Below are positions 4,629-28,935 of a stretch of DNA of 30,171 bases, piece after piece. The position numbers were made by a program, and so were the translations under genes. This DNA comes from a virus, in IMG/VR virus record IMGVR_UViG_3300047554_000608, positions 1 to 30,171 of that record; one strand, written 5' to 3'. Each line of letters starts with the position of its first letter. Position 1 is the stretch's first letter. The notes beneath the pieces are model-generated. The model made no database searches, had not been told where the DNA came from, and saw nothing but the letters and a program-made list of their open reading frames with translations.

Positions 4629-4994
4629 CTAGACAGCAGGAAGAGATGAGTTTTGCATAACCAGCACGAAGTTAACTACAGTCACAGCAGAAGGTTCAGT
4701 TGGGGTTGCACCAGCCAACAGATTGACTACCACGCTAGATGAAGCCGCTGACTTCACTTGTGCCACTAGGTCCACGGCTACAGCCGCTTGAACCGTTGCG
4801 GTAGCAGCTAATACAGCATAGTAAGAGTCTTCTAGAGTGATAGTGTACTCACCTGTGGCTGATTTAGCTACAGAGTAACCTAGACCACTAACCTTAGTGG
4901 CAGCACCACCAGAAGCAGCTATACTGAATGAACCTGCGAGTACGTTGATCTCTTTGTTGAGTGCTTTTACTGGTGCTACAATACGGTTTGCCAT
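4629..4994 (-). CDS. Probable head decoration/head-fibre virion protein (121 aa)
   Basis: A 121-aa protein rich in Ala, Val, Ser and Thr with no charged C-terminus. Its pattern of short beta strands starts at IVAPVKALNKEINVLAGSFS (residues 5-24) and includes GEYTITLEDSYYAVL at about 48-62. It is soluble-looking, with no signal peptide. Its organisation is telling: a promoter candidate (5038-5067) lies just upstream and a strong terminator (4522-4555) just downstream, so it forms a one-gene, probably highly expressed unit, as expected for a capsid decoration or cement protein. Similar small Ala/Val-rich proteins occur in many tailed phages. The decoration role is inferred from composition and context. 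The ribosome site is CAGGAGTAAATATC. Confidence 0.7.
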   Translation of the reverse strand: MANRIVAPVKALNKEINVLAGSFSIAASGGAATKVSGLGYSVAKSATGEYTITLEDSYYAVLAATATVQAAVAVDLVAQVKSAASSSVVVNLLAGATPTEPSAVTVVNFVLVMQNSSLPAV

Positions 4995-5037: not shown

Positions 5038-5067
5038 ACTATACCATAATGGAGGGTTAAACTTGTT
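5038..5067 (-). promoter_or_regulatory. Candidate promoter for the 121-aa virion gene
   Basis: On the minus strand, TGGTATAGT is an extended -10 (TATAGT at 5043-5038) lying 18 nt after AACAAG (5067-5062). The same 13-mer AACAAGTTTAACC occurs at 8893-8881 in front of a TATAAT box at nearly the same distance. The canonical -35 match is poor, so it may rely on the extended -10 or on a phage factor. The upstream part overlaps the last codons of the 5057-5803 gene. Confidence 0.45.
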
Positions 5068-5803
5068 CTTGAGTAGGTGTGGCTAAGGAATTGGTGAACT
5101 TGCTGCCACTGGGACTAGGTGACTTCTCTTCTTCCTTGGTGGTCTGTTGCTGTAGGGTCTGTAGTAGACTTGGAGTTAATCTCTGTACTCCTAGGAGTCT
5201 AGAGAACAGTGCGGTTTCAGCCATACCTAACTTAGCATCCTCTGGTTGCTTAGCGAACTCCTCGAACACTATCTGCTTTATTGCTTCATAGAAGCTTGGG
5301 TGCAGCAACTTCAACGTCTCTACTTGCCTTATGGTTAGGTTACCATTCAACATCAACGGTAACACTAGTGAAGGATTGATGGCTATGTTGGCTGAAGAGG
5401 TAAACTTGAACTTGTCATAGTCAGATGGTTCTAACTCTTGCAGACCGAACAGTGTCTTGGAAGTGGTGTAAGGTAGGTTGTCCTTGAGGTAGGAGTGGAC
5501 ATTGGTAGTCATGGGTGCTACATCATCTACTGGGTCACCGTAGTTGTCTATGGCTATACGTAGTCTGTCTGGGCTTATGTCATTGGGTACCTTGGACTTA
5601 AGCTCTTCATACGTATAGAAGTGTGGTAGTTCTGTAAAAGTTATGCCATCGTTTAGTAAACGAATGACTGTACTTCTAACTTTTCCTATCATATCATCGA
5701 GTCTGTCTAAGGTGATCTTTTTGGGTGAGGCACTGGATAGCTTAAGCAGGTAAGGGTATGGCACTAGTGGTGATAAAGAGTCTTCCTGGTAGTCAATAGG
5801 CAT
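5057..5803 (-). CDS. Hypothetical protein, 248 aa
   Basis: An upstream TTG (5836) would extend the ORF, but the ATG at 5803 has a well-placed AGGGGATCAACT ribosome site and is preferred, giving 248 aa. The protein is soluble and mixed alpha/beta. The middle part is helical (LPLMLNGNLTIRQVETLKLL, then LHPSFYEAIKQIVFEEFAK), and the C-terminus is a Gln/Thr/Lys/Ser-rich disordered tail (TLQQQTTKEEEKSPSPSGSK). It has no catalytic motif. It lies between the small TM protein and the probable decoration protein, so it could be a replication accessory or a minor virion or assembly protein. I do not recognise it. Confidence 0.7.
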   Translation of the reverse strand: MPIDYQEDSLSPLVPYPYLLKLSSASPKKITLDRLDDMIGKVRSTVIRLLNDGITFTELPHFYTYEELKSKVPNDISPDRLRIAIDNYGDPVDDVAPMTTNVHSYLKDNLPYTTSKTLFGLQELEPSDYDKFKFTSSANIAINPSLVLPLMLNGNLTIRQVETLKLLHPSFYEAIKQIVFEEFAKQPEDAKLGMAETALFSRLLGVQRLTPSLLQTLQQQTTKEEEKSPSPSGSKFTNSLATPTQEQV

Positions 5804-5835
5804 AGTTGATCCCCTGGGGCTAGTGTTAGGCTTCA

Positions 5836-5864
5836 ACTATAGTCATTTGGTTACCCACGGTTAA
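5836..5864 (-). promoter_or_regulatory. Candidate promoter before the 248-aa gene
   Basis: On the minus strand, TTAACC (5864-5859, 4/6 match) is followed by a 17-nt spacer and TATAGT (5841-5836), about 33 nt upstream of the preferred ATG at 5803. The AAGTTTAACC block also appears in the promoters at 5038 and 8865, although here it overlaps the last codons of the 73-aa gene. Confidence 0.35.
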
Positions 5865-6352: not shown

Positions 6353-7432
6353 CTACTTGGGTGTGAGTACCTTCATGATGCTCTGTGGCATAATAACTTC
6401 ACCTTCTGCTATAGGCCGCATAATACCCTTATCATAGATAAGCTCAACTGAACCCTTGTGCTGGAAGCGTCGGTTCTTATGGATTTCATATGTAGTGATC
6501 TTAGTGTCGAAGTTAACCTTCACTTCAATGACTATGGTTGAGTAACGTAAGATGCTGCCACCCATGACCATCCTAGTATCCATCGACTTAGCACCCTTCT
6601 TCTTGTCGTCTGAGTGCATTTGAGCACACATGATGATTGGGAAGGATAGGGTGTTGAGTATGTTCTTTAGTTCTGATAAGAACTTCTCCAACTGGAAGTA
6701 GTGATTGTCGCTGGAACTAGATCCTGCCGTGTATATGTTCGTTAAGTAGTCAATCAGAACTACATCTGGCTTAACGGTGGCTTTATCTAACTTCTTAATA
6801 AGATTAAGTACATACTCAGACTTAGTGGTGCCGTTGTTTGATAACTCACAGTCCAACACAAACAACCTCTTCTCTTGAACTAGCGACTGAAACCGCTTCA
6901 TAATCCTAAGAGTCTGCTCAGGAGTTGAATGTTGGTTGGCATACTCTAGTGGATCTACGCCTTCCATCAGGCAACTTACCTTGTCATATACATCGTTAGA
7001 TGACTCTTCATTGGATATGATGAACACTCGTTTACCTTGCATTAAGTACTTATAAGCCACATTAACTACAGTAGTAGTCTTACCGGTACCAGTATAAGCA
7101 GCAACCGTAACGAGTTGACCGGGGACTAGTTTGAACTTACTGTCGAATGCTTCGCTGATGAAGGGTACTGCATCTCTGAAGGACTTATTGCGTTGGGAGT
7201 AGTCACGCTTGTAGTTGCTGTATAGTTGGGATTGTAAGGAGCTGAACATGTCGTCGCAGTACTCCTGGGTAAGAGTTGACACACTAGCGTGTTCACTCTC
7301 TAAGAACACCTCTTTTTCATAGTCGCGTTCAACCTTCTTTTGGTTGACAAAGTCCTTCTTCTTCAAGAGGTTGTCTTTCTTTTGTCCTTCCTGAAGAATG
7401 TAAGATACGGTGTCATTATCTAGCTGTGCCAT
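6353..7432 (-). CDS. DnaB-type replicative DNA helicase (RecA-fold, helicase domain only)
   Basis: A 359-aa protein from the ATG at 7432. An ATG 15 nt upstream exists, but the AAGGAG ribosome site lies between the two, so the inner start is used. Residues about 100-350 form the RecA-like SF4 helicase core. Walker A is AAYTGTGKTT at about 111-120; a loop holding ISNEES follows at about 139-144; Walker B is VVLIDYL at about 224-230; then PIIMCAQMHSD, a DnaB motif 3/H4-type segment with the sensor Gln; and finally a GGSILRYST segment. The first ~90 residues are charged and helical, and lack both the DnaB N-terminal domain signature and any TOPRIM primase motif. It should unwind the replication fork 5' to 3'. 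It overlaps the initiator gene region, forming a replication module. Confidence 0.88.
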   Translation of the reverse strand: MAQLDNDTVSYILQEGQKKDNLLKKKDFVNQKKVERDYEKEVFLESEHASVSTLTQEYCDDMFSSLQSQLYSNYKRDYSQRNKSFRDAVPFISEAFDSKFKLVPGQLVTVAAYTGTGKTTTVVNVAYKYLMQGKRVFIISNEESSNDVYDKVSCLMEGVDPLEYANQHSTPEQTLRIMKRFQSLVQEKRLFVLDCELSNNGTTKSEYVLNLIKKLDKATVKPDVVLIDYLTNIYTAGSSSSDNHYFQLEKFLSELKNILNTLSFPIIMCAQMHSDDKKKGAKSMDTRMVMGGSILRYSTIVIEVKVNFDTKITTYEIHKNRRFQHKGSVELIYDKGIMRPIAEGEVIMPQSIMKVLTPK

Positions 7433-7443
7433 TGGTTGCTCCT

Positions 7444-8448
7444 TCATGTAAACGTTGCGAATAACTCAGTTACGTCCAGATTAACAGTATCAGGATTAGA
7501 CTTAGGTAGACCAGCTTGTTGAGTTTTAGGTTTACCAATCTTGAACTGATGCTTCACTGCCACTCGCCATTGTGCTTTGACATCATCACACCAGGTTTTA
7601 TAGTCGGCACCTTTGGTATGGGGGATTACGAAGGGGAGGAGATGTTTGACTGCCGACAGAGTCTCAGACTCAGAGTATGAGTTCTGGTGGAAGGTGGCTA
7701 CAAGTGCGTCTAGGTGATCTTGTCGACCTTTTCGTGGTTTCAAGAGGTCAACATCGCCAGAGTCTGCTAGATATGCCTCTATCAGTTCAAGTTCGGTCGG
7801 GGATGGGTTAGCCAAGGGCTGGGCTACTTTCGCGCGACCTCGTGCAACCTCTGCATCAGGAGATATTGGTTGAGTTTGAGAAGCCTCAACTACACCTCCA
7901 GAGACAGTCGTTTTATCTTCCTTAATAATCTTAGGTGAACAGGAATATAGAGTGAATGTATCCTTACTATTACTATATCTTCCTTGAAAGGAGTTATTAA
8001 TAAAGGAAGGGGGAGTTATATCGACTCCCCTTCCTGTCGATGAAGAAGAAGAGTTAGTTTCTTCTGTCCCCTGAGGGGACGAGGCCTTGTCCCCTGAGGG
8101 GACGAGGGCGCCACCACCATATGTAATAACGTTCTTATCCTTAGAGACCCACTGCATGTCACCGTTGACTTCATATGTATTAGGTAGGTTGCCAATAACG
8201 GGGTGAAGGTGTTTGTGTTTAAGTACTAGTCCCTTATCAACCAGAGACTTAATGCTATCCTTGACTTTACTCTCGCTATATGAAGTAGCAACAGCGATAT
8301 AAGAATATGATAACATTTTGTTTTGACTATACTTCCAGCGAAATAATGTTGTCAATATAATGTACTCCATATGGCTAATATATTTGTCCTTCAACATATC
8401 AAAGATAATGTTGGGTATGTTAGTATATGGTGCTGTGTAGTTATCCAC
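7444..8448 (-). CDS. Replication initiator with N-terminal winged-helix domain
   Basis: A 334-aa protein starting with GTG at 8448 behind a strong AAGGAGACTGAC site. Residues about 8-95 form a winged-helix domain: YISHMEYIILTTLFRWK, then VATSYSESKVKDSIKSLVDK as the recognition region, then KGLVLKHK and the wing. A long low-complexity linker (about 105-225, Ser/Thr/Gly/Pro-rich) follows. The C-terminal part (about 225-320) is helical with HLDALVATFHQNSYSESETL and WRVAVKHQF, and might contact the helicase. The layout of DNA-binding N-terminus, linker and helicase-interacting C-terminus mirrors lambda O and phage DnaD-like initiators. The linker-encoding DNA carries palindromic repeats (see 7981-8107). 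The stop falls 12 nt before the helicase start. Confidence 0.8.
   Translation of the reverse strand: MDNYTAPYTNIPNIIFDMLKDKYISHMEYIILTTLFRWKYSQNKMLSYSYIAVATSYSESKVKDSIKSLVDKGLVLKHKHLHPVIGNLPNTYEVNGDMQWVSKDKNVITYGGGALVPSGDKASSPQGTEETNSSSSSTGRGVDITPPSFINNSFQGRYSNSKDTFTLYSCSPKIIKEDKTTVSGGVVEASQTQPISPDAEVARGRAKVAQPLANPSPTELELIEAYLADSGDVDLLKPRKGRQDHLDALVATFHQNSYSESETLSAVKHLLPFVIPHTKGADYKTWCDDVKAQWRVAVKHQFKIGKPKTQQAGLPKSNPDTVNLDVTELFATFT
7981..8107. other. Candidate replication origin with iteron-like palindromes
   Basis: Inside the initiator gene's linker region lie two identical 19-bp repeats, 8066-8084 and 8089-8107 (GTCCCCTGAGGGGACGAGG), each starting with a perfect 15-bp palindrome with 7-bp arms. 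Next to them is a longer dyad, 8004-8016 with 8024-8035 (one bulged base, 7-nt loop), and a short dyad at 7981-7992. All sit beside an AT-rich run (about 7960-8003). The 23-bp repeat period is not a multiple of 3, so the two copies are read in different frames and protein sequence cannot explain the repeat. Iterons plus an AT-rich element inside the initiator gene are the arrangement of lambda ori in gene O. The function is inferred. Confidence 0.6.
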
Positions 8449-8462
8449 GTCAGTCTCCTTGA

Positions 8463-8750
8463 CTATTCTTCATATATGTCGTTGATTATTAAGGTATATA
8501 GATCATTATGTAACGTTTTAACGTTACTATTTAAATATAAAGTTTCGCCTGTGTTAGTGATTAACAGATACTTTACAAGTAGTTGACTGTGGAAATCTGT
8601 ATCGTGAGTATGAGTGTTTCGACAGACTATGCTATCGTTGTGGTTGGCTATAGGAGTACAAGTCACTGCTGCTTCAACACCTAACCTGTCTGTCTCCTGT
8701 TGAATCAGACTGTCTATCGCTTGTCGTTGTAGAAAGTTCATCTTAACCAT
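8463..8750 (-). CDS. Hypothetical protein, 95 aa
   Basis: A 95-aa ORF starting 31 nt downstream of the structured RNA at 8781-8860, with an AAAGGATTAAACA ribosome site. The N-terminus is helical (NFLQRQAIDSLIQQETDRL). The middle has Cys27-x-Cys-poor His-rich text (VCRNTHTHDTDFH, about 42-54) that might bind a metal, and the C-terminus has beta strands (LLVKYLLITNTGETLYLN). It is the first gene of the replication operon. I recognise no family. Confidence 0.65.
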   Translation of the reverse strand: MVKMNFLQRQAIDSLIQQETDRLGVEAAVTCTPIANHNDSIVCRNTHTHDTDFHSQLLVKYLLITNTGETLYLNSNVKTLHNDLYTLIINDIYEE

Positions 8751-8780: not shown

Positions 8781-8860
8781 AAGTAAGCCCCATCTGCGTT
8801 CCCTTCAACAGCGGCTCTGACCTAGCCACCGCCAAAGGGTCAGTTCGATGGGGCTTACTT
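8781..8860 (-). ncRNA. 80-nt rod-shaped structured RNA (two stems, internal loop)
   Basis: Read on the minus strand, 8860-8847 (AAGTAAGCCCCATC) pairs perfectly over 14 bp with 8794-8781. Inside it, 8839-8824 (CCCTTTGGCGGTGGCT) pairs with 8816-8801 over 16 consecutive positions, five of them G-U. The stems are separated by a 7x6-nt internal loop and capped by a 7-nt loop, AGGTCAG. Read on the plus strand the five G-U pairs become A-C mismatches, so the structure is specific to RNA transcribed from the minus strand. The loop (GGTCAG) is also complementary to CTGACC at the internal loop, allowing a pseudoknot or an alternative hairpin. Possible roles are an RNase III processing site like those between T7 genes, a stable 5' leader, a small RNA, or an elaborate terminator. 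A U-rich run after the stem (CTTACTTATTT) leaves the terminator reading open. Confidence 0.6.
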
Positions 8861-8896: not shown

Positions 8897-9178
8897 TTAC
8901 AACGTATGCTTCTCTAACGCTCTCTTGATCTCGCCTAACTCTTCCTTGACCTCGTCGCATAACTTAAAAACTTGGTCGCAATGAAACTTATGCAACGCCG
9001 CTATATCACAGAGCATTAATGGTGTTACTGCGTTGTCTGTCGACTTGGGTGGTTCAAATTTCGCCTGGTCTAACTGTTGCAAAGCGCGTGGTATATCTTT
9101 GGATGTAAGCACACCAATTCGGTGTAGCAAAGTCATCAAATATGCGACTTTCCTCTTCCGATTCCCTATAGAGTCCAT
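8897..9178 (-). CDS. Hypothetical protein, 93 aa (small helical virion-operon gene)
   Basis: A 93-aa ORF 2 nt after the large ejection protein gene, with GGAGTAAGT before its ATG. It is predicted mostly helical: basic N-terminus (NRKRKVAYLMTLLHRIGVL), then DIPRALQQLDQAKFEPP, and a C-terminal amphipathic helix (VKEELGEIKRALEKH) with coiled-coil potential. It has Cys residues in LMLCDIAALHKFHC and LCDEV. It is the last gene of the long structural run, so it could be a small virion or assembly factor. I do not recognise it. Confidence 0.65.
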   Translation of the reverse strand: MDSIGNRKRKVAYLMTLLHRIGVLTSKDIPRALQQLDQAKFEPPKSTDNAVTPLMLCDIAALHKFHCDQVFKLCDEVKEELGEIKRALEKHTL

Positions 9179-9180
9179 AC

Positions 9181-11538
9181 TTACTCCTCGCCGAATACTC
9201 GACGTAGCTGTTTAAGCAATGTCCGCTGGTTACTGGTCATACTACGACCTAACTGATCCCTTAACTTAAGCTCGTTGTATATCTCACGTCTAGGGTCCAT
9301 TGACCGTCTAGGATCAAACTTAACTTTCATGTCAGTCATAGCTGGCTTACCTAACAGCACTTCCTTCTGCCGCACCGCTCTGTCAGCAGCTTCCTGTTCT
9401 GCCTTGGTGAGTGGCCTGGTAATCTTGGGTACCTTAAGGTTAGTGTCTACGACCTTCTTATCGATGTTTTTGATGCCGCCGAGTCTAGGGACCATACCTT
9501 TGGCTACCTCTACCTGATCGCTCATCTCCATGTCATCTAGACCAATAGAATCGGTAAATGTGAAGTAGTCTATTAACTGACCGAAGTCAGTGGCCAACGA
9601 CGTAGGCTTTGGCAACTGTATCTCCTTCAGTTCAGCCTCTTTAGCCGTCTCTTCAGCTGGGATCAACGCTTCCATAGCCTTAGCATACTCTGGATCCTTC
9701 TTGCGAAGGTAGGTGTCTGTCAGGATTAGGGTGCGTAGTGACTGTGAACTTGCCTTAGCCAACATCGGTGCGTACTGCTCTACTGCTCTCGGTAGTTTAC
9801 CGTCTGCTATGGCATCACTGAAGACCTTCATGCCATTGAGTAACTTAGACTGTTTACCAGATGTTGCTTCCTGTAGTGCCTTCTTAGCTATAAACTCATC
9901 GGCTTTTTTGCTGACTACGTTGGCTGCTTTTTCAGAAGCTGACGCTAATGCTTCACCAAGCACACCACCAGTAACACCTCCACCAAGTGTATCAGTGGCA
10001 TAACCAAGACTTCTTGCTGCAACTTTACCAGCACCACCAACGGCTTTCTTTATAATCCCGGTTGGTGTTATTTCACTCTCTCGGAGATTCTCTATGAGTT
10101 TACGCTCTGCCTTATCTAACTTATTTAGGTTGTTTTCCAACACTCCACGTGTAGCTTTTAGTTCATCACTTAAAGCTAACTTCTCAGGTCCACTTAATTG
10201 GTTAGACTTGAGTTTCTCAGTAAGGTCTTTAACCTTAGCTTTAAGTTGCTCTATTTTAGCTTGAGGTACCGCGGTTGATCGGCGTAACTGAGCTTCCTGT
10301 CTAACGTCATCGATGCCTCTGCTTAAACCACCGGTTGACTTAAGGTAGTCTAACTCATTAAGGATGGGTTTAGCGTCACTTAAGAGGTTTTGTATCTTAG
10401 CGTTGGCCTCAAATGACTCCTTAGAGTAACGATCTACGTTTGATCTAGCTGCCTTATAATCAGTTAATTCCTTAAGCTGACGTTCAGCATCCTTCAGGAA
10501 TACAAGTGAACCTGGATCATCTGGATTCTTCTCTACGACAGCTTTAGCTCTGTCCCTATAAGCTTCCAGACCAGCTATGTCATCATCTAGTGCTTTGTCT
10601 GACTTAAGGTACTGGTCTTTCTTAGTTGCCTTGATGGAGTTAAATGCTTCTTGCTCCATCTCTTTGGCTGTATTAAAGTTAACATCAGCGTCACTACGCT
10701 TTTGGACCGTACTTAAGTAGTCTTTCTTGATGTCGTTGGCTTCTTTACTTAAGGTCTGGATTTTGTTGGCGGTACCCGGCTTATCGATCATCTTCCTAGC
10801 TGCTACCGTACCTTTGACTGTCTGACCTATGCCAGCCAAAGAACCACCCAATAGACCACCTAATAGAGCACCTTCTTTTACATCACTAGTAAGTCCAGCC
10901 AGATCACCTTCAGTTATATCTGCTTTACTCATACCTAGACTTTGAGCACCACCAGCCAAAGCACCTTGTCCTGTGACCTTGCCGACTTCCTTAGCTCCAC
11001 CGACAACGGCTTCTACAGCACTCTTAGGGGCAGACACTTGAGCTAATCTAGAGACAGTCTGTTTAGCTGTGTCTTGTGCAGCTACTCTTGCCGCTTCCTT
11101 GGTGAGTTTACCTGCGGTAGTTAGTCCCTTGGCTGCACTAACACCTGCCTTAACAGCACCAACTCCTACTCCTAAACCAGGTATAGGTACCAACACAGAA
11201 CCAGCGAGATTACCTGCTCCATAACTAACAGGATTATCTCTGGCGGCCATCTCATCTTCTAGTCTGGCTGCACCGCGTTCCTGTCGGTAAGTTTCCAACA
11301 AACCCTTAAAGTCATCCTTAGGAGCAAACACGTTACCAACTGCTTTAGCACCAGCTTTAACCGCTCCTTTAATCTCATCGCTGAAACCGAAGGTGATGCC
11401 TTGTAGACCACCTTTAATGGCTGAACTTAACGGTGAGTTGCGCTCAATATCAGTCCACTCTTCACCACTATCCTGTGCTTCAGGAGTAGGGATGTCAGTC
11501 CACTCTTCTTGATTAGAAGTATTCTTAACGTTTGGCAC
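9181..11538 (-). CDS. Large internal virion / DNA ejection protein
   Basis: A 785-aa protein if the GTG at 11538 is used. That start has AGAGGAGATTATTC in front, while the ATG 21 nt upstream has no ribosome site. The N-terminus carries two copies of EEWTDI. Next comes GLQGITFGFSDEIKGA and a segment with YRQERGAARLEDEMAARDNP, a combination seen at the N-termini of many podovirus ejection proteins. Gly/Ala-rich hydrophobic stretches (GNLAGSVLVPIPGLGVGVG near 110-130; LLGGLLGGSLAGIG near 230; TLGGGVTGGVLGEALAS near 520) look like glycine-zipper membrane-inserting segments, separated by long coiled coils (about 270-480). The likely role is to form a channel through the host envelope during DNA entry, as T7 gp14-gp16 do. 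The start overlaps the end of the upstream gene by 14 nt. Confidence 0.78.
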   Translation of the reverse strand: MPNVKNTSNQEEWTDIPTPEAQDSGEEWTDIERNSPLSSAIKGGLQGITFGFSDEIKGAVKAGAKAVGNVFAPKDDFKGLLETYRQERGAARLEDEMAARDNPVSYGAGNLAGSVLVPIPGLGVGVGAVKAGVSAAKGLTTAGKLTKEAARVAAQDTAKQTVSRLAQVSAPKSAVEAVVGGAKEVGKVTGQGALAGGAQSLGMSKADITEGDLAGLTSDVKEGALLGGLLGGSLAGIGQTVKGTVAARKMIDKPGTANKIQTLSKEANDIKKDYLSTVQKRSDADVNFNTAKEMEQEAFNSIKATKKDQYLKSDKALDDDIAGLEAYRDRAKAVVEKNPDDPGSLVFLKDAERQLKELTDYKAARSNVDRYSKESFEANAKIQNLLSDAKPILNELDYLKSTGGLSRGIDDVRQEAQLRRSTAVPQAKIEQLKAKVKDLTEKLKSNQLSGPEKLALSDELKATRGVLENNLNKLDKAERKLIENLRESEITPTGIIKKAVGGAGKVAARSLGYATDTLGGGVTGGVLGEALASASEKAANVVSKKADEFIAKKALQEATSGKQSKLLNGMKVFSDAIADGKLPRAVEQYAPMLAKASSQSLRTLILTDTYLRKKDPEYAKAMEALIPAEETAKEAELKEIQLPKPTSLATDFGQLIDYFTFTDSIGLDDMEMSDQVEVAKGMVPRLGGIKNIDKKVVDTNLKVPKITRPLTKAEQEAADRAVRQKEVLLGKPAMTDMKVKFDPRRSMDPRREIYNELKLRDQLGRSMTSNQRTLLKQLRRVFGEE

Positions 11539-12949
11539 GAATAATCTCCTCTGTACCATCGGTGTAGATTACCTTGATGTCACCTTTAGAGTTCGTTTGA
11601 CGCTTGAGTTCCTGTTTAGATTTAGTTGGTGCAGTAGCAGCTTCCATCGGTGTGCTACCACCAGAAATCCCTAGGAAGGAGTTAGTTACTTGTTGTCGGT
11701 TTTGTCTCTTCTGCTCTAGTACTTCTGGTGAATCACCGAAGCGTGGGAAGTACTGTCTAGATCCACTCTCAAACTCAGATTCAGAGATAGAAGCACCAGA
11801 CTCTCGTCTAAGAACAGCATTAAGGAAGTTACGCTCTGCTTGTTCTTGCATCTGCGCTTCCTTAGACTTAAGTGCATTGGGTTTGCTTCTGTCAAAAGCA
11901 CCACTCATGGAAGCAGCATCATAGTTCTGACTGTAGAGTTTATCCATGGTTTGATTAGCAGATGACATCCTCTCGCCATACAATCTGTCTTTGACTTGCC
12001 ACTCCTGTAGTGCTTTAGCTTCCTTAGCGGCGATTTTAGTCGTAGTCTTAGTGTTCTGCGCCTCGTTGATGTCCATCTGCATCTTAGCTTTTTGAGCGTC
12101 TAAGGAGTTATTAAGTGCTGCTAGGTTGTTCTTAGCTTCTGCACTAACATACTTACCACCTAACAGACCTAGTTTTTGTTGCACTTGGTCAGTTTGAGCT
12201 AGTTTATATGCTATGCCATTCTCAATTACTTGCTGTCGTAACTTAGCTTTACTGGCGATAGATAGTTTGCTTTGCTCTATGGCTTGTAACTTTTGATCCA
12301 TAGATTGCTTATAGTTAGCGAAGTCATCATCCATAGCTTTGTTGATGATGTCTAGAGCATAGTTCTTGCCACCAGTCAAGGAAGCACCGTAAGAACCTAG
12401 TCCAACAGCGATGGCACCCAAGATCTTGTTGCCTGTGCCACGTGTTGCCCAGAAACCTTCATATTTCTGAGAACGGTATTCATCTACCTGCTTGTTCAGT
12501 CTGTCCTGGTCTTCCTGTGCTTCCTTGATAGCATTATCACGTTCAGACTGTATCTTTTGTTCTAGTTCAACACTACGATCAAACCCTTGTTGCTTAAGCT
12601 TGTTCTCTTCTAAAGCCTTAGCTTCTTGTATCTTAGCTTTCTCAGCTTCTATATTCTTCTGCTCTTCAAAAGTCTTGCCTAAGTTTTGTGCACCTTGTAG
12701 GAATGCTGCATTAGGTGTAGTCTTCTCTATCGTTGTCTCTTGGACCATAGGAGTAGGAGCCACAGATGGCATGAGTGGTTGTGGTGCTGCTGCGGCCATG
12801 GGTGCTGGTTGAGGACTAACTGGTACTGGTGCTGGTGTAGTGTCAATCATTGCCTGACCAACTAGATTAGCCTGACGTTGTGCTTCTAGTTCCTCATCAG
12901 ATAGTTTAGGAAGTGGTGCGTTGATACCTGGTATCATTGCTTGTGGCAT
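11525..12949 (-). CDS. Internal virion protein with coiled coils (474 aa)
   Basis: The N-terminal ~80 residues are Pro/Ala/Gln-rich and disordered. Residues about 85-160 form a long coiled coil (NIEAEKAKIQEAKALEENK). A Gly-rich hydrophobic segment follows (GTGNKILGAIAVGLGSYGAS, about 173-192), then ALDIINKAMDDDFANYKQ, a motif common in podovirus internal proteins. A second coiled coil leads to a conserved-looking C-terminal block (NFLNAVLRRESGASISESEF and then YFPRFGDSPEVLEQKRQNR). This order fits an ejection or inner-core protein packed in the capsid. It sits 2 nt after the S74-domain gene and overlaps the start of the next ejection protein. The ribosome site is AAAGGAAAGTAGTC. Confidence 0.78.
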   Translation of the reverse strand: MPQAMIPGINAPLPKLSDEELEAQRQANLVGQAMIDTTPAPVPVSPQPAPMAAAAPQPLMPSVAPTPMVQETTIEKTTPNAAFLQGAQNLGKTFEEQKNIEAEKAKIQEAKALEENKLKQQGFDRSVELEQKIQSERDNAIKEAQEDQDRLNKQVDEYRSQKYEGFWATRGTGNKILGAIAVGLGSYGASLTGGKNYALDIINKAMDDDFANYKQSMDQKLQAIEQSKLSIASKAKLRQQVIENGIAYKLAQTDQVQQKLGLLGGKYVSAEAKNNLAALNNSLDAQKAKMQMDINEAQNTKTTTKIAAKEAKALQEWQVKDRLYGERMSSANQTMDKLYSQNYDAASMSGAFDRSKPNALKSKEAQMQEQAERNFLNAVLRRESGASISESEFESGSRQYFPRFGDSPEVLEQKRQNRQQVTNSFLGISGGSTPMEAATAPTKSKQELKRQTNSKGDIKVIYTDGTEEIIRAKR

Positions 12950-20297: not shown

Positions 20298-20918
20298 TTA
20301 GGTGAGGTAGCGGTTACCTTTGGATATATTATCTGAGGCTAGAAGATACTGAAGGTTAGAGTAATGGTTAAGTTTGATTAACTCATCCTCAGTAGTCACG
20401 GTAGATACTGGTATGATGTGGTCTATGTGGAGTTTGTCATCATGAGTAGGATAACGACCATAGTTTAGCCAAAAGCTATATTCCAGGTGGTTCTTAAGGA
20501 GTTCGATGGAGCAACCTACTATAGTGGTAGTCTTAGAGGTTTTGGGTAGGTTGCGATTGCGGAGAGAATGATAGATGAGACTTCGTATATCTTTATGCAA
20601 TTTGATCAACATGTTAGATTGTCTTCGTTTTGCATTATATAGTTTTAAATTGTCAGTGTTATTTTTTCTCCATCGTTGATTATTTTGTTTATAACGTTCA
20701 GGATCTCGCTTATATCGTTGTCTATAATATTCGATATTACTCTGATAAGATATTCTAGCATTCAATCGATGAAGTTGCACATCTTGAGCATATGTTTGAC
20801 GTTTATAGCCACAAATACATTCCTTACACCAGCTACTCAATCCATCCTTACTACGCTTATAGTTATAGAACTCACTATTAGTCTTCTCTACTTGGCACCT
20901 AGGACATACCTTATTCAT
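20298..20918 (-). CDS. HNH homing endonuclease with N-terminal zinc finger
   Basis: The ORF could begin at 20948, but the internal ATG at 20918 has TGGAGGGGTG immediately upstream and aligns with the start of the paralogue at 3872, giving 206 aa. Two Cys pairs (CPRC, CKEC) surround FYNYKRSKDGLSSW. A basic Tyr/Arg-rich linker follows. The HNH domain contains FWLNYGRYPTHDDKLHIDHI, LNHYSNLQYLL and DNISKGNRY. The C-terminal ~95 residues and the underlying DNA are very similar to the gene at 3339-3872, while the middle differs, indicating duplication plus exchange of the DNA-recognition region. It lies between the capsid gene terminator and the 99-aa acidic gene. Confidence 0.87.
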   Translation of the reverse strand: MNKVCPRCQVEKTNSEFYNYKRSKDGLSSWCKECICGYKRQTYAQDVQLHRLNARISYQSNIEYYRQRYKRDPERYKQNNQRWRKNNTDNLKLYNAKRRQSNMLIKLHKDIRSLIYHSLRNRNLPKTSKTTTIVGCSIELLKNHLEYSFWLNYGRYPTHDDKLHIDHIIPVSTVTTEDELIKLNHYSNLQYLLASDNISKGNRYLT

Positions 20919-20985
20919 CACCCCTCCAGGAACGTATTCTCTATTCATTATCCTGTCGCCAGTCTATAGTAACACACTTGAGACT

Positions 20986-21018
20986 AAAAAGCCCAGTCGA
21001 CACTGCGGCCAACTGGGC
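20986..21018 (-). terminator. Rho-independent terminator after the major capsid gene
   Basis: On the minus strand, 21018-21012 (GCCCAGT) pairs with 20997-20991 (ACTGGGC) around a 14-nt loop, followed by TTTTT (20990-20986). It sits 23 nt past the capsid stop, comparable to the leaky terminator after T7 gene 10, which raises capsid expression over downstream genes. Confidence 0.88.
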
Positions 21019-21040
21019 TCGTTACTTAATCTAACGTAGA

Positions 21041-22273
21041 TTAAGCTAGTTTAACTCGTACGTTGTATCCAGGTGCACGGCTACCAAGGTTTCCATAAAA
21101 CCCAAATCTGCATTCCACGCCATCTGCAGACGCTTGGCGTAGCATGCTAAGACCATCGCTATCAATGACTCGTACAGCCTTACCTAAGGAGTAGAGCTTC
21201 CAAGTACGAATGTCCAACATCCACGCTACATCATCCGGGCAGTTCTGGTCAGCGATGACCTTGATTGGTCCACGTGGTCCATTGATGACAATACCGCGGA
21301 AACCAACTTCGGCGTTCATCGTAAGGTCAACATACTGCACCTTACTGCCTAACGCTTTCTCAAGCTCAGCATACTTCTTGTAAGAGATAAAGCAGTGGTC
21401 AATCTTACCACCTTCACGTGCACCACGGCTAGCACCTTCAATCATCGCTTCCTCAATAGGAAGTGCACTACCATCAAAGCGGATACCACCAAGACGGGTC
21501 GTGTCTACGCTACGGTCAACACCAAAGAACAGTGCCGAGGTAGGTGCTGTTGCTGGAACCCAAGACTCAAGACCACTCAACTTAAGCCCACGGTCACCTT
21601 CAACGAAGAGGTAATCGTCAGCTGCGATAGTACCGTTAGAGTCATAGGTTACGTCAAGGGTCAGTTTGCTGTCACTACGGTCAACTGCACTGATAACAAA
21701 GCTACTTACTCCTGTAGAGGAGATACGTTGTGAACCACCAGACTTAGCAGACCAGATAACCAGTTTCTGACCTACTTCAAAGTTAGTTACATCGCTAGCA
21801 AGCTTAAGTTCAACCACGAAAGAACCTACGTTCTCTGATGGCTCTACCTTAACCTGACCGATAGCACCACTTGAGTCACGATAGAGACTTACTGCTAAGG
21901 AGCGAGTAAGTGACTGGATAGCACCATCGATTTCGGTGGTAGCTGCTTCCATGAAAGCATTAGGGTTACCCTTAGATGCTTCAAGCGTCTCATTGTCAAT
22001 AGTTGCGATAGAGTAGTCCTTAACACGGGTAAGAACAAAGTCAGTAATCAGCGAGCTAGTAGTAGCACCGCGGCTTTGTGCGTTGCTGAAGCTAGCTGAA
22101 CGACCTTGTGGGTTACCATAGATCAAGGGGATAGGAAGGTTCTTGCCACCAAAGTCCTCATACTTAGGAAGGAGAGCAAGAAGTGGGTTGTCCTTGTAAA
22201 CCATGTTCTGAACTTGGTCACTGGTGTAATGCTGTTTAAGAGCTGCATCAAAGCTCGTCATGTCAAGTGCCAT
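21041..22273 (-). CDS. Major capsid protein (HK97-fold)
   Basis: A 410-aa protein immediately downstream of the scaffold and followed by a terminator. The N-terminus (residues 1-40) is helical with FDAALKQHYTSDQVQNMVYK and NPLLALLPKYEDFGGKNLP, the usual opening of podovirus capsid proteins. FVLTRVKDYSIATIDNETLEA (about 77-97) and IDGAIQSLTRSLAVSLYRD (about 113-131) fit the E-loop and spine helix. A beta insertion lies at about 140-225. The C-terminal half contains IDHCFISYKKYAELEKALGS and the final P/A-domain strands. It should form the icosahedral shell. The ribosome site is TAGGAGTTTATTACA. Confidence 0.9.
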   Translation of the reverse strand: MALDMTSFDAALKQHYTSDQVQNMVYKDNPLLALLPKYEDFGGKNLPIPLIYGNPQGRSASFSNAQSRGATTSSLITDFVLTRVKDYSIATIDNETLEASKGNPNAFMEAATTEIDGAIQSLTRSLAVSLYRDSSGAIGQVKVEPSENVGSFVVELKLASDVTNFEVGQKLVIWSAKSGGSQRISSTGVSSFVISAVDRSDSKLTLDVTYDSNGTIAADDYLFVEGDRGLKLSGLESWVPATAPTSALFFGVDRSVDTTRLGGIRFDGSALPIEEAMIEGASRGAREGGKIDHCFISYKKYAELEKALGSKVQYVDLTMNAEVGFRGIVINGPRGPIKVIADQNCPDDVAWMLDIRTWKLYSLGKAVRVIDSDGLSMLRQASADGVECRFGFYGNLGSRAPGYNVRVKLA

Positions 22274-22300
22274 TGTAATAAACTCCTATAAGGTTTAGTT

Positions 22301-23164
22301 TTAATCCCAACGTAGCAGTGCTGCTGCCCTTCTCTTAGATTCTTCAGCGCTCAAACTACTTGAATCGCTGATCTTTTGTTTAGTGGGTGCAGTCACATAG
22401 TCCGTGTTAAGTGTGTAACTAGGTTTTACAGGAGGTTGAACTCTTCGCTCCTCAATCACCGGTGCTGTCGTGGTGGTGTCGTTACGTAACTTACTCTTGA
22501 ACTTATTGGCGTTAAATGCTTTACTGACTTCCTTCTCTAGATAAGACTCAACTAAATCAGCAGCCTTGTCTATCGACAACAGTTGTCCGTTAGCATTAAA
22601 CTGTGCTTCTGTTACTTCCCATACTAAATCAAGTTGACCATAAGTATTAATTAGCTCGTAACGGTCAGGGTTCTTGCTCACGTGATCTTGAATCTTATGT
22701 TGATGTAACAGTATCGCTTCATTAATAGCATCTTGGTTAGCCTTCTCGCGTTGTTCTTCCTCTAGGCGAAGTTTCTCAGCTTGTTCTGCTTTGAATGCCT
22801 CTAGCTCACGTCTAACCAGCTCTACTTCACTAATTTCCTCACGTGGTGCATCTTCACCTAGGACTGAAGTAAGTAGTTCATCTAGTGTTAGGCCATAGTG
22901 CTGTAGTAACTCCATTGGGTTACTCTTTGCTTTCTCCTTAAGGGCTAACAGTTGCTGTGCTTCTGCTTGCTGTGACTTTAATGCAGCAGCTTGCTCCTGT
23001 AACTTGCGTTCTCTCTTAGAGAGGGCAGCAAACCTAGCACCAAACAGACCATCTTCCTGTGCCTCAGGAGTAGATGATTGAGCTGGTGGTGTCGCTTCTG
23101 TGGTTGCTGGTGATTCACTGGGGGTTGGTGTGGGTGTAATGATGGACTGTGCGATTTCTGACAT
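22301..23164 (-). CDS. Scaffolding protein
   Basis: A 287-aa protein. It has a Pro/Ser/Thr-rich disordered N-terminus (residues 5-35), a long charged coiled coil (about 45-150: LSKRERKLQEQAAALKSQQA, then LVRRELEAFKAEQAEKLRLE), a helical domain (IQDHVSKNPDRYELINTYGQ) and a C-terminus ending SAEESKRRAAALLRWD, the basic tail typical of scaffolds that bind the capsid protein. It lies between portal and major capsid genes, the standard place. The start is behind AGGAGATAGTAAAT. The 46-nt gap upstream is AT-rich and holds TATAGA/TATAGT boxes without a good -35. Confidence 0.88.
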   Translation of the reverse strand: MSEIAQSIITPTPTPSESPATTEATPPAQSSTPEAQEDGLFGARFAALSKRERKLQEQAAALKSQQAEAQQLLALKEKAKSNPMELLQHYGLTLDELLTSVLGEDAPREEISEVELVRRELEAFKAEQAEKLRLEEEQREKANQDAINEAILLHQHKIQDHVSKNPDRYELINTYGQLDLVWEVTEAQFNANGQLLSIDKAADLVESYLEKEVSKAFNANKFKSKLRNDTTTTAPVIEERRVQPPVKPSYTLNTDYVTAPTKQKISDSSSLSAEESKRRAAALLRWD

Positions 23165-23210
23165 ATTTACTATCTCCTATACTATATGTCTATACTAATA
23201 CTTAGTTGGT

Positions 23211-25067
23211 CTATGGTGCTAAGGGTACATTAGGTAGTAAGTCTGTCTGTGCTGGTGCTTCTGGTACTGCTATGGGTGCTACTGGTGCTGCTTCCTGTGG
23301 TAGAGGAGCTGGTGCTTGTTGCTGTTTCATCATATCAGCATCATCTATAAATCTTAACACATGTTGTAGTCTATCTTCTGGAACTTCATCTAGTCTGCCT
23401 TGAACATAGTACTTGTGACCATACTCGATAGCCTTGTCTAGGTTCATGTAAGGTTCAGGTGGTAAATAGACATCTTCATTGATCATCTTGGCTAACTGTT
23501 TCTCTATCAGGTCGTTGTTGGCTGTCTGTAGGGACACGAAGGAGTCGAGGTCTGGGTACTCTAGCAGTTGTAGGGCTGCGTCCTTGTCAATAAACCCAGC
23601 TTGGACTAGTTCTTGTACCTTCTGTAACTTACCGGCTGGACTACTAGGTAGTAGAGAGACAGGCCATGTCTTCATGATGAACTCATCTTCATCTATGTCT
23701 ACATCCTTCCACTTGATAGACTTAATGAAGGTGGAACCAGGGACAGTCACACTGATGTTCTTATCCTGCTCATAGAGATCCTTAGAGATATTAACTATGA
23801 TCTTAGCTAGGTCTAAGAAGGTCTTCTCATATCTCATGGCAGTCAACATGAAGCGTTCTGACTCTATATCAGAGTACTCGCGTAAAGCTACTCCTGAATC
23901 TAGACCAGCTGGTTTACGACTAGACGCTGAGAGTTGGGACACCCCAGATAACTCATAGGCACTACTAATCAGCCACTTAAGATGATTATAGACCTCTGGG
24001 TTCATGGCAGTAGGAGTATCAAAAGTAGGTTTATTGCCTGTATATTTGACGATAGCACCGATGTCGTTGTTAAGGTGGGAAGTGACTACATTAGACCCTT
24101 GCTCAATGAATGCCCTAGGAACAGCAACTCTGTCCTGTGCTATCTGGATTGATCTCAAAGTCTTGTTGATGGATAGTTGGATACCTTTAAGTTCCTCTGC
24201 TACACCACTACCAAAGAAGCCACTAATCCTATCATTCCACCTAAAGAACACAAAGGGGAAGTAGGACTTAACATAAGGTTCACTAAACAGACAAGCAGTC
24301 TCTATGCACCAAGTGTGCTTTCCTGGCTTATCATCAGAGTAAGGTAGACGCCATGACTCTACTACCTTAACTACATCATCGATAGACTCAACACCATAAG
24401 GTAGTCCTGATGAAGCCGCCATGATAGCTACTCTGTGTTCTGGGAATAACTCTAGGAGTACATCACGTGACATATACTTAACTTGATGGATCTGCTTAGG
24501 CGAAGCATTAGCACCTTCAATTTGGTCTACCCTAAGTTCATCGATAAAGACCTTCTCTACTCTAATCCTGCCATCTTTAGTGAAGACCTTGAGAGCACCA
24601 GTGCCAAATACACAGGCATCCATGAACATGCGTTCTGCTAACTCATAGATATTACAGTCATAAAATACACCAGCAACATAATCAGTCAACTTCTTGCCAC
24701 GCTCACGCTGTAACCAGTCACCATTATTAGTCAAAAACATAGGCTTAGGTCGGTTCTTAGCTATCTTAGAGCATGCTGTATCAGCTACTGACTTGATAAC
24801 ATTATAAGTTATCCTGTTCTGTAGTAGAGTGTCAGGTCTAGTGTTCTGTGCTAAAGCGTACTGAGCAAACCCTAGGAGTTCGAGGTCGGAGTAAAGCCTA
24901 GCATGTTGTATGTTGAGGTTGTGCTGATAGTTAGACTGCTTTTCAATAGAAGCTACTACACTGAATACTGAGGAGTGTAGTTCAGCATCTGATAGGGTCC
25001 ACCAACGATAATTAGAGGTATTCTGAGCAACGTTGGTACCAATATACTCTTGCTTAATGTTTGCCAT
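23211..25067 (-). CDS. Portal protein
   Basis: A 618-aa protein in the place expected between terminase and scaffold. The N-terminal half has LEQNRITYNVIKSVADTACS-type text (RITYNVIKSVADTACSKIAK at about 83-102) and MDACVFGTGALKVFTKDGRI (about 147-166), both typical of podovirus portals. FPFVFFRWNDRISGFFGSGV, EELKGIQLSINKTLRSIQIA and then SRKPAGLDSGVALREYSDIE (about 385-405) are also characteristic. The C-terminus is Pro/Gln/Ala-rich after a helical barrel-like region. Twelve copies form the DNA-translocating ring at one vertex. It starts 3 nt after the 53-aa ORF. Confidence 0.9.
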   Translation of the reverse strand: MANIKQEYIGTNVAQNTSNYRWWTLSDAELHSSVFSVVASIEKQSNYQHNLNIQHARLYSDLELLGFAQYALAQNTRPDTLLQNRITYNVIKSVADTACSKIAKNRPKPMFLTNNGDWLQRERGKKLTDYVAGVFYDCNIYELAERMFMDACVFGTGALKVFTKDGRIRVEKVFIDELRVDQIEGANASPKQIHQVKYMSRDVLLELFPEHRVAIMAASSGLPYGVESIDDVVKVVESWRLPYSDDKPGKHTWCIETACLFSEPYVKSYFPFVFFRWNDRISGFFGSGVAEELKGIQLSINKTLRSIQIAQDRVAVPRAFIEQGSNVVTSHLNNDIGAIVKYTGNKPTFDTPTAMNPEVYNHLKWLISSAYELSGVSQLSASSRKPAGLDSGVALREYSDIESERFMLTAMRYEKTFLDLAKIIVNISKDLYEQDKNISVTVPGSTFIKSIKWKDVDIDEDEFIMKTWPVSLLPSSPAGKLQKVQELVQAGFIDKDAALQLLEYPDLDSFVSLQTANNDLIEKQLAKMINEDVYLPPEPYMNLDKAIEYGHKYYVQGRLDEVPEDRLQHVLRFIDDADMMKQQQAPAPLPQEAAPVAPIAVPEAPAQTDLLPNVPLAP

Positions 25068-25070
25068 GAA

Positions 25071-25232
25071 TTACCTCGAGGAGTAATAGAGTAGATCATC
25101 ATCTACTGTTGTGTGTTTTGGTTGATCGTGCTGACTACGGTATATGGTAATGCCATCTACTTCAACTTTATCTATGGAGTGTCTCTGCATAAGTTTCATG
25201 AGTTGCTCAATAAACTCTAACTTCTCATTCAT
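25071..25232 (-). CDS. Small ORF between terminase and portal (53 aa)
   Basis: A 53-aa ORF with a strong AAAGGAGATACA ribosome site and a stop 3 nt before the portal ATG, filling an otherwise empty gap. The N-terminal half is helical (NEKLEFIEQLMKLMQRHSI), followed by a short strand pair (KVEVDGITIYRS) and an Asp/Tyr-rich tail. It has no membrane segment. The tight spacing on the portal side supports real translation. The function is unknown; translational coupling with the portal or a small packaging factor are options. Confidence 0.7.
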   Translation of the reverse strand: MNEKLEFIEQLMKLMQRHSIDKVEVDGITIYRSQHDQPKHTTVDDDLLYYSSR

Positions 25233-25286
25233 TGTATCTCCTTTGTGTGCTATAAATAGTGTAGTGGTTAGTAATAAGCTATAGGT

Positions 25287-26702
25287 TTATAACATGTTGT
25301 CTTCATTCTTGATTGCTAACAGACGCTCTTCTTCTTGATCCCACCACTTATTAACAGCAGCTTCACTATTAGGATGTGGTGTGTCAAACTTGGGTGACCA
25401 AGCATACTGATGACACCATCTCCAGGCATACAACATAGCATCACTTAAGTGGTTGTCACAAGAACTATGTTCAACAAACACACCAGCTTCACGTTTCTTG
25501 ACATCCCAGACTAGGTTAACCCATTCTTGACGTAGTTGATCTGTAGTTGACCTTAGGAGTTTGATGTTGCCTAGTATTAGGTCTGAGTTGAACATCTCTA
25601 TATAAGCTTTCTTATCTGACTTTATGGCTGCTACTAAGGGTATGGAGTAGCGTCGCTTAAGTTCCTCTACTACCTGCTTAGAAGCACCATCAACCACCAT
25701 GGTAGCAAAGTTGTATCTATTCCTAAGTTCCTTTATCTTATCGGCTACGTCACTTACTATCATATGTTTGGCGCTGAAGGTCTCTACTACATATAGTTCT
25801 TTAGCATGCTCAGAGTAAGCTGTCACTACAAAAGCTGTTGCATCCTCATAACCCAGGTCAATACCTAGGACGTAGTTGTAATTGAGGTTAGGTAGTGTTT
25901 CCACTAAGTTCCTATGACTATCAAACCTATAGATAAGTGACGCATCATCTATATACCACTCGTTTAGGTACATACGCTTAAAGGATGGAGTATCTTGTAT
26001 GCCAGGGTGAGTCTCAATTAGACTCTCCATTTCAGCCTTAAAGTTGTCTTTCATATGGGGGTTGTCGAGTGCACTCCACTTATGAACTGACCAACCTGGT
26101 TGTTTACCGGTAGTTATATCATAGTAAAGTCCACGGGTGATGTCAGAAGTAGTAGAGATAAGACAGATGGTACCCCGATAGTCAGCTACAGCCGGTTTAA
26201 GTACCTCATAGACTAGCTTATGCAGGTCTTGAGTATACATAGCGGCTTCATCAATGATACATAGCTTAAACTTCTGACCTAGTAGTTTGTCCATCTCGGC
26301 GGGCTTAGCATCTACTCCTAGGAGGTAGATAACAGAGCCATTGGGTAGGGTGTAACTTAATTCGCTGGCGTTGAACTTGGCGTGTAACTTAAAGCGTTCA
26401 TTGATGCTACTCAATATATCCTTAACCATGATCCGCTTAGCTTCAGCCCGTGTTAAACCGATATACACCACGGATACACCAGGGTTCTCATAAGCTTCCT
26501 TGAATAGGTATAGGCCAGCACCATAGGACTTACCTGCTCTACGAGTACACTGTGCCACCTTTAATCTTGAAGGATCTAGGATGAAGTTAGTTTGGGTAGT
26601 AAACTCTTTCTCTATGAAGCTAAGTGGTGCTTCACTCTTTCTTCTTAAGAGTTCTTCTAATATTAGTTGTGCTTGCAATCTGTTCATTCTTAGTGTGCTC
26701 AT
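25287..26702 (-). CDS. Terminase large subunit (ATPase-nuclease)
   Basis: A 471-aa protein. The ATPase domain has Walker A QCTRRAGKS at 51-59, Walker B LCIIDEA at 147-153 (Glu152 catalytic) and coupling motif LISTTSD at 181-187. The RNase H-fold nuclease has Asp282 in LGIDLGYED, Asp338 in MVVDGAS and Asp421 in HLSDAMLYAW. It cuts concatemers and drives DNA into the procapsid through the portal. The ribosome site of the ATG at 26702 is weak, and the start overlaps the upstream 82-aa gene by 71 nt; a later start at Met6 (26687) is possible. The length and motif order are those of podovirus TerL. Confidence 0.95.
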   Translation of the reverse strand: MSTLRMNRLQAQLILEELLRRKSEAPLSFIEKEFTTQTNFILDPSRLKVAQCTRRAGKSYGAGLYLFKEAYENPGVSVVYIGLTRAEAKRIMVKDILSSINERFKLHAKFNASELSYTLPNGSVIYLLGVDAKPAEMDKLLGQKFKLCIIDEAAMYTQDLHKLVYEVLKPAVADYRGTICLISTTSDITRGLYYDITTGKQPGWSVHKWSALDNPHMKDNFKAEMESLIETHPGIQDTPSFKRMYLNEWYIDDASLIYRFDSHRNLVETLPNLNYNYVLGIDLGYEDATAFVVTAYSEHAKELYVVETFSAKHMIVSDVADKIKELRNRYNFATMVVDGASKQVVEELKRRYSIPLVAAIKSDKKAYIEMFNSDLILGNIKLLRSTTDQLRQEWVNLVWDVKKREAGVFVEHSSCDNHLSDAMLYAWRWCHQYAWSPKFDTPHPNSEAAVNKWWDQEEERLLAIKNEDNML

Positions 26703-26880
26703 TGGAGTCTACCTTCATCCACGGTATGTTAGTTGCTGGAATGACTATGACTTGACCATTGAACTCTACGTGTAATAGGAAACCATCAAACCACATCTCA
26801 TACTTATTCTCTGGTATGAATGTAAGTTCATCATTACCTATTCTTACGGACTGGAATAACTTAACTGACGTAATCTTCAT
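26632..26880 (-). CDS. Small beta-rich protein upstream of terminase (82 aa)
   Basis: An 82-aa ORF 3 nt after the GNAT gene. Residues 1-57 read as a compact beta protein (MKITSVKLFQSVRI, NKYEMWFDGFLLHVEFNG, VIVIPATNIPWMKV). The last 25 residues are polar and lie in the region overlapping terminase by 71 nt. The beta part ends just where the overlap begins, so the tail may be dispensable. Small proteins of this style occur next to terminase in other podoviruses, but I cannot name the family. The ribosome site is weak, suggesting translational coupling to the GNAT gene. Confidence 0.65.
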   Translation of the reverse strand: MKITSVKLFQSVRIGNDELTFIPENKYEMWFDGFLLHVEFNGQVIVIPATNIPWMKVDSNEHTKNEQIASTTNIRRTLKKKE

Positions 26881-26883
26881 AGT

Positions 26884-27318
26884 CTATCTCATTAAGTAGG
26901 GATTATAGGTTAACTTGAACTTACAACTAGCTTCCCTCAGGTTCCTAGGAGCATGAGAGATGAAGGTTGTAGTTTCACCAAAGTTAGGTATGTAAGCGTT
27001 AATCAGCATCTTAGCTATGCCTAACTTGCGGTAAGCGTGCTTCACGTAGACGAAGTGCACTATACTGGTAGAAGCTAGAAGCTCTATTACTGAGTAACCA
27101 AAGATATGTCCATCGTCTTCACCTTCACACATAACGCTTACTATTACATTAGGTTTCTGTAATAGACTGGTTATGATGTTCTTATGCTCTAAGAAGAACA
27201 CATCATTACTTAACTCACTAGCAAAGTTAGAGTTACGGTAGGATTTGAGCCAAGTGGAGAAGATGAAGCTGGTGTCATCTGGATGGAAGGGTCGGATGGC
27301 TAAAGTAGTGGGACTCAT
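26884..27318 (-). CDS. GNAT-family acetyltransferase (144 aa)
   Basis: A 144-aa protein with the GNAT layout: an N-terminal strand and helix (LAIRPFHPDDTSFIFSTWLK), central strands (NVIVSVMCE, HIFGYSVIELL), strand 4 plus motif A (IVHFVYVKHAYRKLGIAKML at about 87-106, with the acetyl-CoA pyrophosphate loop R-K-L-G-I-A), and the C-terminal strands. The substrate is unknown. Phage acetyltransferases near terminase genes may modify a virion or host protein. It overlaps the upstream 94-aa gene by an ATGA junction and has a good GAAGGAGACGAC site. Confidence 0.82.
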   Translation of the reverse strand: MSPTTLAIRPFHPDDTSFIFSTWLKSYRNSNFASELSNDVFFLEHKNIITSLLQKPNVIVSVMCEGEDDGHIFGYSVIELLASTSIVHFVYVKHAYRKLGIAKMLINAYIPNFGETTTFISHAPRNLREASCKFKLTYNPYLMR

Positions 27319-27599
27319 GTCGTCTCCTTCTTAGTTACACCTAAATATTGAGCTGCACGCTCAGCTAGGTCATGCATCTCTTTGTCTGTCTTAGATACAT
27401 AGTTGGCAGACTTAATCTCATCTCGCTCATCCTTGGTGATAGACAGGAGAGTTCTAACATAGTCATTGAGTTTGCGTGCTTCAGTGGCATCTAGGGTAGT
27501 GCTACTAGAAGCTAAGTGCTTTATCTTATTAATATCATTCTTAATGATAAACAAGGCTTCATCTAGTATCTCTTCTGAAGCTGATCGTGTCATTTCCAT
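27315..27599 (-). CDS. Possible small terminase subunit (94 aa)
   Basis: A 94-aa, all-helical acidic protein: EEILDEALFIIKNDINKIKH, LDATEARKLNDYVRTLLSIT (about 38-57), and EMHDLAERAAQYLGVTKKE. The helix pattern and the position two genes upstream of TerL resemble short terminase small subunits of podoviruses, which oligomerise into rings and bind packaging-site DNA. No HTH is evident, so the neighbour at 27590-27955 is an alternative. Met3 (27593, ATGA overlap with the upstream stop) may be the true start, because AAGGG is better spaced from it. Confidence 0.55.
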   Translation of the reverse strand: MEMTRSASEEILDEALFIIKNDINKIKHLASSSTTLDATEARKLNDYVRTLLSITKDERDEIKSANYVSKTDKEMHDLAERAAQYLGVTKKETT

Positions 27600-28611: not shown

Positions 28612-28935
28612 TTACGGCCTCATCATACGCAGGAGAGCATATAACAAAGATACAGCAGCAGATGATGTAAGCACAAACTTGACTATCCCCACCACAGTCC
28701 TAAACTCTTTACGGAAGTCATCTATAATGTGAAGCTGTTGCTCTAGGAGATCTGTGCGCTTAATGTGATAAGCTAGATCCTTTTGGATGTTCTCTTGTGA
28801 GTTGGTCATAGAGGAGAAGAAGGTAGACTGGTTGGTTACGATTGACTGTAAGGCGTGGTTTAGGTCATCAATCTTCTTATCAACTTTGTATAGACGTTGT
28901 GCTATAGAGTGGTTAGAAGAATCAAAGTTACTCAT
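28612..28935 (-). CDS. Coiled-coil protein with C-terminal membrane helix (XhlA/holin-like)
   Basis: A 107-aa protein. Residues about 11-80 form a coiled coil (RLYKVDKKIDDLNHALQSIV, QKDLAYHIKRTDLLEQQLHI), and residues 81-103 (VVGIVKFVLTSSAAVSLLYA) a membrane helix with a short basic C-terminus. The layout matches the XhlA/haemolysin-type small proteins found in phage lysis cassettes. It lies after the tandem-repeat array and starts behind TAGGAGTAATA. With the two-helix protein at 29043-29255 it probably forms the membrane part of the lysis system. Confidence 0.68.
   Translation of the reverse strand: MSNFDSSNHSIAQRLYKVDKKIDDLNHALQSIVTNQSTFFSSMTNSQENIQKDLAYHIKRTDLLEQQLHIIDDFRKEFRTVVGIVKFVLTSSAAVSLLYALLRMMRP

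Follow-up and report, generated by a model that had tools for sequence, protein, structure and literature searches.

A long double-stranded RNA rod between the structural and replication genes of an uncultured podovirus-like phage: a candidate RNase III-type processing hairpin

The window that we analyzed, a stretch of 30,171 nucleotides, is a 30-kb IMG/VR record of an uncultured podovirus-like tailed phage, and its genes include those for a portal, a terminase, a major head protein, an internal virion protein, an endonuclease VII-like protein, an O-like initiator and a DnaB-like helicase. A 146-nt gap separates the stop codon of a 93-aa ORF (8897), the last gene of the structural cluster, from the start codon of a 95-aa ORF (8750), with which the replication cluster opens. 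Within this gap, beginning 36 nt past the upstream stop codon, we observe an 80-nt segment that folds as minus-strand RNA into a rod (Table 1). This confirms the position between the structural and replication operons given in a preliminary description of the locus. A family match was sought for the 93-aa ORF, and none was found.

Table 1. Coordinates of the rod, its parts and neighboring or comparable features in the window
Feature	Position	Strand	Sequence or remark	Basis
Rod, whole (80 nt)	8860-8781	-	5' to 3': AAGUAAGCCCCAUC-GAACUGA-CCCUUUGGCGGUGGCU-AGGUCAG-AGCCGCUGUUGAAGGG-AACGCA-GAUGGGGCUUACUU	
Outer stem, 5' arm	8847..8860	-	AAGUAAGCCCCAUC	fold and inverted-repeat scan
Internal loop, 5' side	8840..8846	-	GAACUGA	fold
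Inner stem, 5' arm	8824..8839	-	CCCUUUGGCGGUGGCU	fold
Apical loop	8817..8823	-	AGGUCAG	fold
Inner stem, 3' arm	8801..8816	-	AGCCGCUGUUGAAGGG; five of its pairs are G-U	fold
Internal loop, 3' side	8795..8800	-	AACGCA	fold
Outer stem, 3' arm	8781..8794	-	GAUGGGGCUUACUU; AUUUCCC (imperfect U-tail) directly after	fold
93-aa ORF	8897..9178	-	closes the structural cluster; nearest gene before the rod	
95-aa ORF	8463..8750	-	first gene downstream of the rod, opens the replication cluster	
SD-like AAAGGA	8763-8758	-	before the 95-aa ORF, outside the rod	
O-like initiator	7444-8448	-	replication gene downstream of the rod	
DnaB-like helicase	6353-7447	-	replication gene downstream of the rod	
Canonical U-tailed hairpin terminators	4556-4530, 2085-2062, 21020-20989	-	in other gene gaps of the window	

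The rod consists of a 14-bp stem, a 7x6 internal loop, a 16-pair stem and a 7-nt loop, for a total of 30 pairs. All 14 pairs of the outer stem are Watson–Crick, while five of the 16 inner pairs are G-U. The MFE and centroid folds of the minus-strand RNA coincide, and its MFE is −50.8 kcal/mol (z −8.84); the shuffles average −24.5 kcal/mol, and none of 200 is as stable. RNA of the plus strand over the same region reaches −37.9 kcal/mol (z −4.82), and the region folded as single-stranded DNA gives −23.9 kcal/mol (z −5.8) for the minus strand and a z of −4.3 for the plus strand. Arms and loops match exactly the two-stem geometry first described, which also stands when both strands are folded against shuffles. 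In a 92-nt fold scan of both strands of the window, the rod is the most stable element on the minus strand. Its outer arms are the sole perfect inverted repeat of at least 13 bp within 120 nt, where base composition leads one to expect about 0.02 14-bp inverted repeats of this kind, and the 52-nt segment that they enclose is itself structured. The fold is real, statistically striking and RNA-level.

A complementarity between the apical loop and the 5' side of the rod had been noted earlier, with the suggestion of a pseudoknot or a switch. We confirm the complementarity itself, between CTGACC (8843-8838) and GGTCAG (8822-8817), and reject the suggestion on both energy and geometry. The alternative hairpin that these two segments could form has an energy of −11.7 kcal/mol, far inferior to the −49.8 kcal/mol of the rod, and an intramolecular pseudoknot appears implausible because the loop caps a rigid 16-bp helix, the base of which cannot be reached without unzipping.

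The five wobbles of the inner stem are all G-U in minus-strand RNA and A-C in plus-strand RNA, in agreement with the initial view that they pair in the minus-strand RNA only and that the rod is an RNA structure and not a DNA palindrome. We simulated five random substitutions placed on a perfect palindrome, a single-sequence argument that assumes a perfect ancestor, and the share of trials in which all five fell as minus-strand G-U pairs ranged from 0.01% without transition bias to 3% with transitions alone. All recognizable genes are on the minus strand, and the pattern points to selection acting on the minus-strand transcript. Because the inner duplex is retained through G-U pairs, it further argues for selection for double-stranded RNA itself. 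The rod does mark the upstream edge of the replication module, a module found inverted in the nearest relative, and a candidate origin sits ~0.7 kb away inside the O-like gene, as might be expected of a DNA-level element, whether a cruciform or single-stranded DNA structure serving replication or a recombination joint at the module border. We nevertheless give such an element hardly any credence, as the five G-T/A-C mismatches in the inner stem leave no DNA palindrome, the single-stranded DNA fold is weaker than the RNA fold, and the rod is single copy in the window with no comparable repeat at the other border of the module.

The candidate origin (7994-8107) is a separate feature of the replication cluster and the strongest plus-strand fold of the window. 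It contains two identical 20-bp iterons, TGTCCCCTGAGGGGACGAGG, at 8065-8084 and 8088-8107 within the O-like initiator gene, each holding a perfect GTCCCCTGAGGGGAC dyad. The iterons adjoin a polypurine tract, a 9-bp inverted repeat and AT-rich DNA, an arrangement that resembles a lambda-type replication origin within an initiator gene.

Of the roles proposed at the outset, we judge an RNase III site, a leader and an unusual terminator to be the right candidates for an RNA-level hairpin between two gene clusters. The rod is probably a transcript-boundary element on phage mRNA, that is, a processing site or a terminator, and we tentatively favor an RNase III-type processing hairpin with the topology of the T7 R sites. 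RNase III chooses its targets by structure rather than by a strong consensus, and the Escherichia coli enzyme needs no more than a 12-bp stem bearing one set of boxes (PMC8708148). The rod stems, at 14 and 16 pairs, are both longer than this. The fact that a second, G-U-tolerant helix has been kept would be sensible if duplex RNA is what is recognized; topology alone is weak evidence for processing, since RNase III has no diagnostic sequence.

In T7, the R1.1 site between genes 1.0 and 1.1 is a structured RNA whose internal loop is asymmetric (4/5 nt; PMC6121014). Like the T7 R sites, the rod is intergenic, lies on the sense strand upstream of the next gene, includes G-U pairs and runs from helix through internal loop and second helix to apical loop. 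We folded R0.3, R0.5, R1, R1.1 and R1.3 for comparison at what we take to be their positions, the T7 record carrying no annotation of these sites, and recovered this same order of elements; at the location that we presumed for R0.7, no fold was found. Despite the shared topology, the T7 sites are shorter than the 14 + 16 pairs and 7x6 internal loop of the rod, and their stability per nucleotide, −0.30 to −0.37 kcal/mol, is about half the −0.62 kcal/mol of the rod. Moreover, cleavage by RNase III is proven for the T7 R sites only. The rod is single copy in the window, so that it does not recur at further gene boundaries, and none was found in related contigs; we make no claim that it belongs to the T7 R-site family, with which it shares topology but not recurrence.

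As an RNase III-type processing hairpin, the rod would act on RNA that the polymerase presumably continues from the structural into the replication genes. This read-through RNA would fold at 8860-8781 into an irregular double-stranded rod, which host RNase III may cleave at or near the internal loop, as it does at the T7 intergenic R sites. If the analogy with those sites holds, the AACGCA side of the internal loop would be the region of cleavage. After such a cut, the 3' end of the upstream message would be protected, and the 5' end of the replication message would be fixed about 30-50 nt ahead of its first start codon.

The same position could instead be occupied by a Rho-independent terminator with a long structured loop, in which the outer stem would halt the polymerase as it leaves the structural operon, the inner helix only joining the arms. 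Such a terminator may even be bidirectional, as one side of the rod is rich in A and the other in T. The rod resembles Rho-independent terminators, including bidirectional, A/T-flanked ones, in that it follows the last gene of a cluster and combines a GC-rich stem (core GCCCC..GGGGC, then CUUACUUAUUU) with a U-rich 3' flank and an A-rich 5' flank. At the best register, its d'Aubenton-Carafa-type score is +15 on the minus strand and +10 on the plus strand, and hairpin terminators are used at other gene boundaries by the phage and its relatives. The U-tailed terminators in other gaps of the window suggest the use of a bacterial-type RNA polymerase. Unlike these three canonical hairpins, however, the rod is followed by a poor, interrupted U-tail, the longest U-run being 3 and broken by A and C. 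Only three of the nine minus-strand registers tried give it a positive score, and it falls below theirs (best +38, +21 and +34). In lieu of a short hairpin loop, the outer arms enclose 52 nt, and the G-U-conserving 16-pair inner stem would be superfluous for termination. The standard terminator pattern scan, in which the loop limit is 8, does not call the rod. On balance, we regard termination as a serious alternative, somewhat less likely than processing. One could object that a terminator at this site would shut off the structural genes beyond it; we considered this argument and set it aside, since the canonical terminators still further along imply separate transcription units.

The preliminary description also placed a promoter so as to start transcription at the first base of the rod. 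TATAAT is indeed present at 8870-8865 on the minus strand, 4 nt before 8860, but we recognize no −35 partner at a spacing of 16-18 nt, and the hexamer occurs 16 times in the window against 22 expected by chance. An overlapping TTGTAA-16-TAGAAT matches at 9 of 12 positions, with sigma70-like sites at chance level in the window. Given the missing −35, the chance frequency of the hexamer and the 4-nt spacing, the promoter claim is not upheld. Elsewhere in the window, a possible promoter cluster precedes ORF 28612-28935, where three minus-strand TATAAT boxes lie exactly 20 bp apart (29013, 28993 and 28973; window 28968-29013).

The box at 8870-8865 also bears on whether the rod serves as a stable 5' leader, in which the replication mRNA would begin at the base of the rod, from a promoter immediately before it, and would be shielded by the hairpin from 5'-end-dependent decay. 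Stem-loops of the ompA type, at the 5' terminus, are a known class of mRNA-stabilizing hairpin, and Emory et al. (1992; cited in PMC5371410) reportedly found that 5'-terminal stem-loops stabilize E. coli mRNAs. Like them, the rod is a strong hairpin that precedes a ribosome-binding site and leaves it free, the SD-like AAAGGA of the next gene lying outside it, and transcription from the TATAAT would begin within a few bases of 8860. The rod differs from the ompA-type stem-loops in that no supported promoter puts its stem at the 5' terminus, and a leader function is unlikely in light of the promoter analysis above. We hold it very unlikely that the rod is a free-standing regulatory or decoy dsRNA-like small RNA of the phage; the fold is compact, strand-specific, very stable and devoid of recognizable coding content, but independent promoter support, homologues and an Rfam match are all missing, and the operon-boundary location is more simply explained by transcript punctuation. 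A discrete, lineage-specific rod-like dsRNA with a role of its own, for example titrating or triggering a host dsRNA-binding protein (such as RNase III) or regulating the replication genes, strikes us as highly improbable.

Terminase and head-protein alignments led us to over 100 related loci in IMG/VR. The closest relative that has a similar helicase, IMGVR 3300035698_011864 (G038; head protein 74%, helicase 52%), has its replication-gene block inverted relative to the structural genes, and its junction contains no rod. No counterpart of the rod-bearing junction was found in the other relatives, and no hairpin at that site, but the gene arrangement there is not conserved among the relatives retrieved, so that the lack of a hairpin does not fairly refute the rod. 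Helicase- and tail-protein scans returned no close relatives, and a later helicase-alignment scan gave IMGVR 3300035698_011864 again, together with two distant hits. With a covariance model of the rod, we recovered only the rod itself from ~2.5 Mb of related and unrelated phage contigs, and nothing from 190 genomes belonging to the same class as a bacterial MAG in which a distant head-protein relative occurs. An exact scan of IMG/VR for the outer arms 38-66 nt apart gave 0 hits, and a 14-base pattern scan returned over 100 stretches but no similar rod, the pattern being too unspecific. BLAST of the rod against phage and plasmid records gave no match, and Rfam no family match at gathering score.

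The rod is best read as an unusually long, lineage-specific example of the familiar phage intergenic hairpin. If RNase III-type processing is confirmed, an uncultured podovirus-like group that appears to use a host-type RNA polymerase would part its structural and replication messages by means of a double-stranded RNA rod, in parallel to the T7 early region yet with ordinary U-tailed terminators at its other boundaries. Such a finding would extend what is known of phage RNA processing in a useful, if modest, way.

Two further observations concern the gene organization of the relatives. In most of those examined, the region matching window ORF 5057-5836 lies near the C-terminus of a single protein of ~770-1015 aa. 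In G066 (59-2407), the N-terminus of this large protein also matches window ORF 9181-11559. The window itself has the two as separate ORFs, one on each side of the replication module; the region of G038 compared for the large protein and the inverted replication module is 20888-27461 (L267, L268). In addition, G008 (27237-27302, in L160) and G010 (4779-4844, in L161) contain a conserved array of small hairpins, e.g. ACCGTTCGCGGTTG and CTTCCGGGGGACCGGAAG, between the head-protein gene and the adjacent endonuclease VII-like gene, possibly a mobile intron or homing element beside the endonuclease.
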